IMG/VR virus record: IMGVR_UViG_3300017742_000036
Coordinates: 1 to 37,286 of that record
Direction: 5' to 3' (one strand)
DNA length: 37,286 nt
From: a virus
A model generated the notes under the pieces. That model was not told the DNA's origin and made no database searches. It saw nothing but the letters and a program-made list of their open reading frames with translations. Positions 21,533 to 26,292 of the stretch are shown piece by piece. Every line of letters starts with the position of its first letter. Positions within the stretch are counted from its first letter, which is position 1. The translations under genes were made by a program, and so were the position numbers.

Positions 21533-23192
21533 CCTAAGGCAACTCAAAGACTTCAGGAACTTTCTCTACCTAGTGTGGAAACAACTTAACCTACCTGAAC
21601 CAACTCAAATACAATATGAAATCGCGGATTACATGCAGCACGGAGATAAACGAGCAGTTATCCAAGGCTTTCGAGGCGTCGGTAAAAGCTGGATTTGCTC
21701 TGCTTATGTTGTCCACCAGTTGCTCCTCGATCCCTCAAAGAACATACTTGTTGTCTCTGCTTCAAAGACTAGAGCAGATGACTTCTCAACTTTTACTCTT
21801 AGGCTTATCCATGAGATGCCACTCCTTAAGCATCTTATACCCCAGGACAAACAACGATTCTCCAAGATCTCGTTTGACGTCGGGCCAGCCCCAGCGTCAC
21901 ACGCCCCGTCCGTTAAGTCCCTGGGTATCACATCTCAACTGACCGGGTCTCGTGCTGACATTATTGTGGCCGATGACGTCGAGGTCCCTAATAACTCGGC
22001 GACCCAGATGATGCGAGACAAGCTCGGAGAACAAGTCAAAGAGTTCGATGCGATCATTAAGCCCCTCGACGACTCCAAGGTAATCTTTCTAGGAACACCA
22101 CAGTGCGAAGACACGATATACCGACAGCTAACCGAGCGTGGCTACCAGACCCGCGTCTGGCCTGCGCAGTATGTCACCCCAGACCAGAACATGAAGCGAT
22201 ACGATGGTCACATCGCTGAGTGTTGTATTAATATTGATAATAAAGGAAAGTCAACAGAGCCACTCCGGTTCTCTGATGTGGATCTTGCAGAACGTAAAGT
22301 ATCCTATGGGTCTGCAGGTTACGCCTTACAGTTTATGCTCGATTCGAACCTCAGTGATGTCGAAAAGTATCCACTCAAGATCTCAGATCTGATTGTGATG
22401 TCGTTGGACACTGAGCTTGCCCCAGAACGACTAGTGTGGGCCAAAGACCCGGACCTAGAGTGGGACGGATCGATCCCCAATGTCGGCATGACTGGCGATA
22501 GGTTCTACAGGCCTATGAAGACCCTGGGTAAACACATAGAATACACAGGGACCGTTATGTCTATCGACCCGTCAGGACGAGGTAAAGACGAGACAGGCTA
22601 CGCGGTAGTCAAAATGTTAAACGGGTATCTTTATGTCACAGCGGCTGGTGGAGTCCAGGGAGGATACTCAGAGGAAACACTCAAGTTTCTCTCTATGACC
22701 GCCAAAGAACACAAGGTCAACGAGATTGTTGTAGAGTCTAACTTCGGTGACGGCATGTTCGTCGAGTTACTTAAACCTGTGTTGCGCAAAGTCCACGCTT
22801 GCACAATCGAAGAGGTGAGACACAGCACACAGAAAGAAAAACGTATAATCGATACGCTAGAGCCAGTGATGACTGGGCATAAGCTGGTGGTTGATCCTAA
22901 GGTCATCCAGAACGACTACGAGACTAGCCAGGTGTATCCTAAAGACCACGCTCTAAAATACCAGTTGATCTACCAGCTCACACGTATAACACGAGATCGC
23001 GGCGCTGTGACCCATGACGACCGCTTAGACGCGCTTTCGATGGCTGTTGGTTACTGGAGTCAGCAAATGGCCCAAGACGCGTCAGAACGCATCCTAGAGC
23101 GAAAAGACGACGATATACGAAAAGAGCTACAGAAACACGCCGAGGCTTACTTTAAGATCCGCCGCGGGGGCGCCAATATTCTCACTTGGTAA
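21525..23192 (+). CDS. terL: Large terminase subunit (DNA maturase B), T7 gp19 homologue
   Basis: This protein powers DNA packaging and cuts the concatemer. The ATG at 21525 gives 555 aa (T7 gp19 is 586 aa) and the expected N-terminus; an earlier in-frame ATG at 21384 lies inside the HNH-like gene. The ATPase domain has a Walker A motif GFRGVGKS (residues 48-55) and Walker B IIVADDVE (146-153). The RNase H-like nuclease domain has an Asp in MSIDPSGRGKDETGYAV (about 345), a Glu in IVVESNFGDG, and an Asp in THDDRLDAL (about 497). It is the last gene before the left-end control region. Confidence 0.97.
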   Translation: MADLRQLKDFRNFLYLVWKQLNLPEPTQIQYEIADYMQHGDKRAVIQGFRGVGKSWICSAYVVHQLLLDPSKNILVVSASKTRADDFSTFTLRLIHEMPLLKHLIPQDKQRFSKISFDVGPAPASHAPSVKSLGITSQLTGSRADIIVADDVEVPNNSATQMMRDKLGEQVKEFDAIIKPLDDSKVIFLGTPQCEDTIYRQLTERGYQTRVWPAQYVTPDQNMKRYDGHIAECCINIDNKGKSTEPLRFSDVDLAERKVSYGSAGYALQFMLDSNLSDVEKYPLKISDLIVMSLDTELAPERLVWAKDPDLEWDGSIPNVGMTGDRFYRPMKTLGKHIEYTGTVMSIDPSGRGKDETGYAVVKMLNGYLYVTAAGGVQGGYSEETLKFLSMTAKEHKVNEIVVESNFGDGMFVELLKPVLRKVHACTIEEVRHSTQKEKRIIDTLEPVMTGHKLVVDPKVIQNDYETSQVYPKDHALKYQLIYQLTRITRDRGAVTHDDRLDALSMAVGYWSQQMAQDASERILERKDDDIRKELQKHAEAYFKIRRGGANILTW

Positions 23193-23730: not shown

Positions 23731-24026
23731 GGTAAAAATATCTGACACCCCTTATATAACGCAACAGTTCGCCGCGATTCCCCAGGGTAGGCCTAGCAGC
23801 TGACCAAGCGAACATTGTTCAAAGACTCAGCGATTTCTTTTTGTCAGCTGGGAGCGTCTGCATCACCAGTAATACGCGAGGGGTGCCAGGGTAGACAATG
23901 AGTGATCACTAGGTCGCGCGCTGGGAGGCACTAGGTAGTCAGTGAGTGATCGCCGGGTGTCATCGTCAGGGTGTGTTTGTCATTGTGCGGGTGTTTTTAC
24001 GTTTTGATAGGCCAGCGATTACTCAG

Positions 24027-24087
24027 GGATAACAGAGGGATAACAGAGGGATGACTATGGATAACAGAGGGATGACAGGAGGATGAC
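24027..24087. repeat. Six helically phased GGAT(A/G)AC boxes
   Basis: GGATAAC or GGATGAC begins at 24027, 24038, 24049, 24059, 24070 and 24081, with spacings of 11, 11, 10, 11 and 11 bases. The first three and the fourth are embedded in GGATAACAGAG-type units. Spacing of one DNA turn puts all boxes on the same face of the helix, as expected for a cooperative protein-binding array. Its position upstream of the early operon and near the presumed genome ends suggests a packaging, replication or regulatory site. Confidence 0.8.
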
Positions 24088-24431: not shown

Positions 24432-24499
24432 ACTTCTTTATTGTGATAATCATCGTCATCATGTGGTCAGCAATCGCAACTCTAATCATTAACCAGTAA
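24428..24499 (+). CDS. 23-residue single-span membrane peptide (GTG start)
   Basis: GTG at 24428 overlaps the preceding TGA stop (GTGA), and the TAA stop overlaps the next ATG (TAATG), leaving no unused base on either side. The 23-residue product has a short N-terminal Asn-Phe, a core rich in Ile/Val/Phe/Met (about residues 3-21), and Asn-Gln at the end. It reads as one transmembrane helix with almost nothing else. Such peptides often modulate membrane proteins or cause membrane stress. The exact double coupling makes a real gene likely despite its size. Confidence 0.6.
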   Translation: MNFFIVIIIVIMWSAIATLIINQ

Positions 24500-25119
24500 T
24501 GAAAACAACAGCGAAAACAAAGAGCTCTGTTATTGTTGGCAACCTTAGAGCATGGCGAGCCCTAGCGACACCAGAAGACATCAACGCCGGGATCGTATGG
24601 TATAACGAAGCACACCAAGTCGCTCAGGAGATCTCTACTATCATTGGGGGAACTGTCTGGCAAGGCGCTGCAGTGATCAGCGCGTTGTCACCTATGAACA
24701 CATGGGAAGGCAACAAGCACAACGCAATCGAGCTAGCTAAATGTTGGGCCCTTGGTGGTTCAATAGGTGACGTTTCGGTCTCTACGTTCAATGCGAACAA
24801 GCGTAAAGCATGGGAAATATTAAATAATAATCCCAAAGCGCTTAACCAAGAGTCGCGGAAAACGTGGAGCTTCGCCAAGACGATCGAGCTCAAAGAGCGC
24901 GCTCAGTGTGTCGTTATTGATCGCTGGCACTTGAGAGCATGTTTGACACGTTCTAAGACACGCCGTGATCAACTAGGCGAGTCTGTAGGAATTCCACAGT
25001 ATGACCGCATAGAGCGCCTAACGATGAACGAAGCAGCTAAACTAGGAGAAGCGCCTTGTGTTTATCAAGCGATCATTTGGTGCACTATCAAGCGCCATTG
25101 GGAAGGGGGTTCTAAGTGA
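24499..25119 (+). CDS. Conserved phage protein, DUF7178-like
   Basis: This 206-aa protein resembles a family (DUF7178) found in many phages, with W-Y-N-E-A-H at about residues 34-39, AAVISALSPMNTWEGN at about 57-72, VVIDRWHLRACL at about 139-150, and VYQAIIWCTIKRHW near the end. The conserved Ser-Pro, Trp, Asp and His positions suggest an enzyme or nucleic-acid-binding protein, and the helical layout recalls base-excision glycosylases, but I cannot assign an activity. It is the largest gene in the early operon. Its stop overlaps the next GTG start (GTGA). Confidence 0.75.
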   Translation: MKTTAKTKSSVIVGNLRAWRALATPEDINAGIVWYNEAHQVAQEISTIIGGTVWQGAAVISALSPMNTWEGNKHNAIELAKCWALGGSIGDVSVSTFNANKRKAWEILNNNPKALNQESRKTWSFAKTIELKERAQCVVIDRWHLRACLTRSKTRRDQLGESVGIPQYDRIERLTMNEAAKLGEAPCVYQAIIWCTIKRHWEGGSK

Positions 25120-25550
25120 AGCTAACTAATGATCAACTAGAAGCTGCAGCGATCGCTGCCGAAGAATGGCCGAAGCATTACCAAGCGACTATAGCTCTTT
25201 ACACCAAGGACCTAACATGGCCAGATACTGCCGAAGATGAAGCTAATAGATGGAAATGCGCGCGCAAATGGGGCTTACCTGTTGGCGCTTGGTGACCAGC
25301 TGTTTCCGCTTGTGTCTCTGTATGGGACACCGAAGAAACGAAAACGTTTTTAGAAGACGCTGAGCTTGCTGGATACGAAGAGCTAGAAACACCGGACACG
25401 GTGAGACAGCAGGAGATGCACGATGAGCTCTTTGCTGCTCTGCACACGCTCCAAGCTATCGCACCGGATTACACAAGGATCATTGATCAACCGGGGAACG
25501 CCAAGCTCGTAGCTTCTAAATTTAGAGAATATAAGACTAATGAAGATTAA
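25116..25550 (+). CDS. Early protein frame interrupted by an in-frame UGA (59 + 84 codons)
   Basis: GTG at 25116 overlaps the preceding stop and opens a 59-codon frame (MKLTNDQLEA... to GAW) ending in TGA at 25293-25295. The same frame then runs open for 84 more codons to TAA at 25548-25550, and this second part looks like genuine protein (for example ELFAALHTLQAIAPDY). No ATG, GTG or TTG occurs in frame in the first 100 bases after the TGA; the first are GTG near 25401 and ATG near 25419. The next base after TGA is C, a leaky context. Possible explanations are programmed readthrough, a nonsense mutation that splits an old gene, or a sequence error. The function is unknown. Confidence 0.6.
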
Positions 25551-25701: not shown

Positions 25702-25985
25702 AAAAGACAGAAAAAACAAAAGACCAGAAACGACACGACGACAAGATGCTAGCTTTCGCGCTATCGCGAGCACACACTAGTGCATTCGAGGTAGTCATGG
25801 AGTTTAAAGAGTATTACCAAATGAACGAATGCGACATCACTGCTATTCCTTCTGGTGTCGTGTCGCAAATCATGGGAATACACGATTGCGAGATAAACAG
25901 AGCTCACAACAGGAAGGCGCAAAAATACGTAGGCGAACAATGGGAAGAAGACACAACGCCACTCAGCGCTTACGATGATCTCTAA
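25698..25985 (+). CDS. Early hypothetical protein (95 aa), last gene of early operon
   Basis: ATG 25698 overlaps the previous stop (ATGA); the upstream in-frame ATG at 25599 would lie inside the previous gene. The 95-aa protein has a Lys-rich start, a helical middle (MLAFALSRAHTSAFEVVMEF) and an acidic end. A central segment (ITAIPSGVVSQIMGIHDCEINRAHNRK) could be a helix-turn-helix, which would make it a candidate small regulator. It is followed after 27 bases by a terminator. Confidence 0.65.
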   Translation: MKKTEKTKDQKRHDDKMLAFALSRAHTSAFEVVMEFKEYYQMNECDITAIPSGVVSQIMGIHDCEINRAHNRKAQKYVGEQWEEDTTPLSAYDDL

Positions 25986-26012
25986 TTGATCCACACAAAA
26001 CAACCATAAAAC

Positions 26013-26046
26013 AAGCCCCTTGGATTGATTCCTTGGGGCTTTTCTT
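26013..26046 (+). terminator. Rho-independent terminator ending the early operon
   Basis: AAGCCCC (26013-26019) pairs with GGGGCTT (26035-26041), with two further G-C pairs inside a small internal loop, and is followed by TTCTTT. It separates the early operon from the RNA polymerase unit. Confidence 0.82.
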
Positions 26047-26107
26047 TGGTCAAAAACCGATCGCTTGAACACTACTCAAAAGTCAGCACACCGCCCTACT
26101 ATCATCA

Positions 26108-26146
26108 GCGTGCCCGTAAATTTCTAGGCGTGCCCGGAAAGTTCAT
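26108..26146. repeat. Imperfect 20-bp direct repeat (two copies)
   Basis: GCGTGCCCGTAAATTTCTA at 26108-26126 is repeated as GCGTGCCCGGAAAGTTCAT at 26128-26146. The 20-bp period is about two helical turns, as for operator pairs. It lies between the early terminator and the promoter of the RNA polymerase unit. Confidence 0.6.
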
Positions 26147-26292
26147 TAACAATAAATAATATTACTAATGTGAAATAGTAGACTAAGAGTAGACTTAGAG
26201 TCACCTTTCTGAAGAAGCTATTGTTGTCCATAGTGTAATAATAATATTTGTTTTAACTAATAAGGAATATCACTAGTCGATCACTAAGTGTA

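Follow-up and report, generated by a model that had tools for sequence, protein, structure and literature searches.

An early gene of a T7-like phage carries an in-frame UGA codon that is almost certainly recoded, and the most probable outcome, to which comparison of related sequences leads us to give a chance of roughly three in four, is that this UGA (residue 60) specifies selenocysteine (Sec), inserted by the SelB/tRNA-Sec machinery of the host. We infer both the identity of the inserted residue and the presence of Sec machinery in the host. The gene lies in a window of 37,286 nt, by which we mean the whole stretch of DNA analysed (IMG/VR record IMGVR_UViG_3300017742_000036). This 37.3-kb virus record is a T7-like podovirus by gene content, with genes for head-tail connector, capsid, tail, internal virion, terminase, single-subunit RNA polymerase, SSB, helicase-primase and DNA polymerase, and the UGA gene sits in the early region with the terminase on one side and the RNA polymerase on the other. 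The nearest phage by terminase is the uncultured MedDCM-OCT-S45-C18 (Ayaqvirus, 71%), followed by roseophages and pelagiphages at ∼60%; in AP013544 (Ayaqvirus), the closest phage with an annotation, nothing annotated from the terminase to the RNA polymerase corresponds to the cassette.

A previous, sequence-only reading had described a GTG-initiated frame (25116) that reaches TGA (25293-25295) after 59 codons and then stays open for another 84 codons to TAA (25548-25550), and all of these elements were confirmed (Table 1). The start is preceded by a G-rich, SD-like stretch, and its GTG (25116-25118) overlaps the TGA (25117-25119) of the upstream DUF7178 gene, while the 3′ end of the frame shares 11 nt with the next gene (ATG at 25540), which is the operon-style overlap recognized before. 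The lack of a start codon for ∼100 bases past the TGA also held, the first in-frame start being GTG 25401 (codon 36 of the downstream half). Moreover, the C following the TGA, to which attention had been drawn earlier, is present here and belongs to a wider context, in that UGA is followed by CC(A/T)GC in every copy of the gene.

Table 1. Features of the UGA gene and its surroundings (window coordinates), and the hairpin of each clade
Feature	Position	Strand	Description
Upstream neighbour gene, DUF7178 family (PF23802, phrog_3842)	24499..25119	+	synteny anchor
Full-length gene, almost certainly recoded, putative selenoprotein	25116..25550	+	144 residues, UGA = residue 60; basis: ORF and translation, homologues, AlphaFold2
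Upstream half	25116..25292	+	59 codons, GTG start
In-frame UGA, putative selenocysteine codon	25293..25295	+	context UGA-CCA-GC
Downstream half	25296..25547	+	84 codons, the first two being the invariant Pro-Ala
Hairpin, SECIS-like	25312..25330	+	GUGUCUC-UGUAU-GGGACAC; nt +17 to +35 after UGA, loop at +24
Downstream neighbour gene, 53 aa	25540..25701	+	ATG at 25540
Hairpin, clade A			GUGUCUC-UGUAU-GGGACAC
Hairpin, clade B			UUCGUGC-UGGAU-GCACGGA
Hairpin, clade C			UUUUCGC-UGGAU-GCGAAGA
Hairpin, clade D			UCCGCGC-AGGAU-GCACGGA; one C.A mismatch

Homologues were sought with the DUF7178 neighbour as an anchor and then with a DNA pattern, which yielded at least 10 contigs besides the window and L005 (= L001, IMGVR_UViG_3300001450_007343). 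At least 12 IMG/VR contigs, the window included, have this gene with TGA at one and the same codon; they come from about ten metagenomes and fall into four clades, namely A (window and L005), B (L006, L008, L009, L010 and L024), C (L015, L017 and L019) and D (L225 and L276, found by the DNA pattern among the matches listed). The L005 protein, with the same TGA, is 81–83% identical to that of the window (83% in the downstream half), and the window protein shares 23–31% identity with clades B, C and D; proteins of clades B and C are ∼43% alike and those of B and D ∼70%. Clade D combines a clade B-like N-terminal half with a more diverged C-terminal half. When 24 related records were screened with a profile (HMM), 11 proved to hold a full-length copy, always with a single internal TGA, and one a truncated copy, the other 12 having none; in the 11 full-length copies and the window the stop at the site is always UGA and never UAG. 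In several records without the UGA gene, the DUF7178 gene directly adjoins the 53-aa gene, and hence the cassette as a whole is gained or lost. Across 84,980 bacterial and archaeal genomes, querying with the aligned proteins gave no homologue, and the combined UGA-plus-hairpin pattern gave only chance hits among the matches listed; the phage and plasmid records searched held no homologue.

The slot 3′ of the DUF7178 gene behaves as a swap site, which holds a UGA gene of clade A, B, C or D, or none, in otherwise similar phages (L006, L008, L015, L017 and L225 compared with L007, L012, L013 and L023). DUF7178 proteins themselves (24499-25119 in the window) occur across actinophages, cyanophages and roseophages, and the product is called ‘glycosylase’ in some records.

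Selection acts on both sides of the UGA. For pairs with enough changes to estimate, dN/dS was 0.03–0.14 in the upstream half and 0.05–0.18 in the downstream half; the window and L005 gave 0.14 and 0.18, respectively, and the downstream half gave 0.05–0.14 within the other clades. This purifying selection bears out the earlier impression that the second half is protein-like. In tblastn comparisons between clades a single segment spans the UGA, with E about 1e-25 for B and C and about 1e-10 for A and C. Moreover, the Pro-Ala directly after the UGA is invariant, while its third bases vary (CCA/CCT and GCA/GCC/GCG/GCT), which shows that selection acts at the protein level immediately after the UGA, ahead of any potential start, and hence that ribosomes read through it. 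Within clade A, synonymous sites near the UGA were conserved with only modest significance (p = 0.03). Recoding had been one of the options first considered, with a conserved UGA and a conserved downstream protein named as its mark, and this is the pattern observed, so that option is now strongly supported.

A hairpin downstream of the UGA, which is new relative to the sequence-only reading, was found in all 12 copies. It starts exactly 17 nt after the UGA and has a 7-bp stem and the loop [U/A]G[G/U]AU (Table 1). Between clades, 5 of the 7 pairs show two-sided changes, and 98% of cells are paired; the covariation score was 0.721 compared with 0.264 ± 0.077 in shuffles, none of 500 shuffles reached it, and sliding the partner strand gave at most 0.27. 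RNAalifold recovered the same helix unaided. The closing C-G pair and the G, A and U of the loop are invariant, and this includes the wobble A in Gly/Val codons. Published constraints on bacterial SECIS (bSECIS) elements comprise a loop of 3–9 nt, a stem of 4–16 bp, an MFE of at most −7.5, a G in the first two loop positions that is mostly followed by G or U, and a spacing of 16–37 nt between UGA and loop (PMC13188914, Figure 2). Ten of the 12 copies, the window included, fit every one of these constraints, having an uninterrupted stem of 7–10 bp, a spacing of 23 nt and an MFE between −8.8 and −11.8 kcal/mol; the two clade D copies fit except for the one mismatch, their local MFE being −8.3. 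Among the 1343 TGA triplets in the window, only 14 (∼1%) fit this model. Because a complete 7/7 stem is not rare in synonymous recodings with amino acids held fixed for clades A (22%) and C (61%), compared with 3% for both B and D, the weight rests on covariation between clades and not on the stem of a single sequence. No match was obtained from Rfam.

AlphaFold2 predicted the full-length protein as one domain in both clades modelled (clade A, pLDDT 84.8 and pTM 0.82; clade C, pLDDT 84.1 and pTM 0.82), and in the model residue 60 takes the N-cap position of a short helix preceded by a small beta-hairpin. The conserved features of the upstream half are AAxA, WP, C48 and WxLP, and the UGA falls within the best-conserved motif, C-x3-W-x-L-P-x4-U-P-A, the invariant Cys of which is 12 residues upstream of the UGA. 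Profiles from Pfam, PHROGs, NCBIfam and PDB sequences gave no family for the protein, and Foldseek and VIA-align gave no trusted fold, the best Z being 4.2 over helical bundles. NiSOD was matched repeatedly at Z about 3 and was rejected as merely a common helical arrangement; neither fold nor sequence linked the protein to a known redox enzyme. Our best guess is that the protein may have a redox role in early infection, because of the chemistry of Sec, the early gene position, the predicted placement of residue 60 and the invariant Cys.

In the proposed mechanism, the ribosome would first translate the 59 codons up to the UGA, and the hairpin, with its loop beginning 24 nt after the UGA, would serve as a bacterial SECIS element. 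Its [U/A]G[G/U]AU loop would be bound by host SelB carrying Sec-tRNA(Sec), which would compete with release factor 2 to place Sec at the UGA, and the product would be one ∼144-residue protein with Sec at residue 60. We favour Sec because UGA is the only stop used, because the hairpin has the geometry and loop of a SECIS, and because the UGA lies in the best-conserved motif with a Cys 12 residues upstream. In marine bacterial communities the use of Sec is comparatively common (PMC5029168). Against Sec may be set the clade D mismatch, the observation that the phage showed no Sec factor, the frequency of complete stems among synonymous recodings in clades A and C, the modest synonymous conservation within clade A, the failure of fold and sequence to link the protein to a known redox enzyme, and the fact that no Cys-containing homologue was found among the matches listed, when Cys homologues exist for almost all known selenoproteins (PMC12013277). 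However, we take the missing Cys forms to be uninformative rather than contrary, because no homologue with Trp or any other sense codon at the site was found among the matches listed either.

The chief rival to Sec insertion is generic readthrough, in which a near-cognate tRNA, probably tRNA-Trp, would decode the UGA under stimulation by the UGA-C context and the hairpin, giving products of 59 and 144 aa. The UGA-C context in all copies, the hairpin 3′ of the UGA and the conservation of both halves would all be expected from it, but it would need neither bSECIS spacing nor a conserved G[G/U] loop, both of which are present, nor would it account for the exclusive use of UGA where UAG is never used. 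Moreover, because the UGA falls in the best-conserved motif inside one compact predicted domain, the short form would be a mere fragment, and we therefore regard such readthrough as unlikely. The programmed readthrough proposed earlier thus stands as far as recoding is concerned, but we consider Sec insertion likelier than a short and a long form of the RNA-phage type, given the motif, the single predicted domain and the covarying SECIS-like hairpin. A different way to express both halves would be termination at the UGA followed by reinitiation, the halves then being two small genes that overlap or are coupled. Clades B, C and D do have an ATG 3–5 codons after the UGA with a GGAGG/GGTGG stretch just before it, but reinitiation cannot be the general mechanism because clade A has no in-frame start for 36–41 codons, though that stretch is conserved. 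In addition, Pro and Ala, encoded between the UGA and these ATGs, never change although their wobble bases do, the two halves are predicted to fold as one domain, and the cassette is present or absent as a whole, all of which make reinitiation very improbable.

Two further explanations were considered, and we give each of them a negligible probability. A nonsense mutation, a pseudogene or a sequencing or assembly error would look alike if a lone in-frame stop were seen in one contig, and the sequence-only reading had accordingly listed both a gene split by mutation and a sequence error; both are refuted, since at least 12 contigs, drawn from about ten metagenomes and belonging to four divergent clades, have the identical TGA, and since each half, the downstream one included, is under purifying selection. 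Alternatively, UGA could be a sense codon throughout the genome of the phage or its host (code 4 or 25), with which one in-frame UGA would agree. However, ten large genes of the phage contain no internal stop in 7947 codons, which shows that UGA is not reassigned in the phage; TGA terminates the preceding DUF7178 gene, and the clade D copy of the UGA gene itself ends with TGA.

Selenocysteine insertion, the reading we prefer, would place the gene beside the bacterial bSECIS selenoproteins such as E. coli FdhF, with which it shares an in-frame UGA followed by C, one UGA per gene, and a hairpin immediately downstream within the coding region with G[G/U] in a small apical loop at a spacing of 23 nt. 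The SECIS of fdhF has a bulged U and is SelB-dependent, and the phage hairpin is without a bulged U. Unlike those selenoproteins, the present one would be encoded by a T7-like phage and belong to an unrelated protein family with no Cys homologues known. The coat/A1 gene of Q-beta likewise is a phage gene with a short UGA-ended ORF extended in frame, but here a covarying hairpin stands at a fixed distance, the UGA splits a single predicted domain, the phage is a dsDNA T7-like one, and nothing implies an abundant short protein on its own. Natural Sec use has been tied to phages only via tRNA gene calls in the open-licence literature (PMC6145125): Basilisk-like Bacillus phages carry a tRNA-Sec gene call, and no selenoprotein was shown there. 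They share the link between phage and selenocysteine with the present case, which differs in having a selenoprotein-like gene and no tRNA. Eukaryotic viruses do encode selenoproteins, for example the glutathione peroxidases of poxviruses (PMC8310308), which likewise are viral proteins relying on the Sec machinery of the host, as we propose here, but which differ from the phage gene in SECIS type and position, in having clear cellular homologues and in having eukaryotic hosts. In one experiment, T7 was propagated with an engineered Sec code (PMC8923235). Of the metalloprotein and selenoprotein families in marine metagenomes, most are stated to have no viral members or very few, a few metalloproteins being the exception (PMC9402790). 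A phage selenoprotein has not, as far as the open-licence literature shows, been reported before, and such absence is no proof.

We lean towards a phage-only selenoprotein family, an early gene of T7-like marine phages that would be made only in Sec-inserting hosts and would have no cellular Cys counterpart. Bacterial selenoproteins are well catalogued. If the reading is right, we know of no earlier phage selenoprotein family, and this one would break the rule that selenoproteins occur alongside Cys forms; automatic annotation would truncate such genes at the UGA and thereby hide them. It would also mean that some phages depend on the selenium metabolism of the host, with an early-region virus gene using the 21st amino acid, and would give a clue to the hosts, which should encode selB. 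No host was found via tRNAs or kin genomes, and the window holds no tRNA or suppressor gene. The UGA gene offers a compact, testable candidate SECIS element with a natural set of variants.

Several minor features of the surroundings were observed. The non-coding interval between terminase and early genes contains short near-tandem repeats (24018-24087), variants of ATAACAGAGGGATGACA, and a cluster of the same type occurs in the relative L001 at about 1521-1591; perhaps it is a replication origin or control region. A terminator-like repeat, AAGCCCCTTGGATTGATTCCTTGGGGCTT, lies 5′ of the RNA polymerase gene in an intergenic segment (about 25985-26176) that is nearly identical to that of L001, and the neighbouring genes diverge more. 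Finally, in the terminase frame of L001 a 2-base insertion close to the 3′ end (about 599-606, compared with about 23062-23065 in the window) shifts the last ∼40 codons, and this is either a sequence error or a real frameshift.
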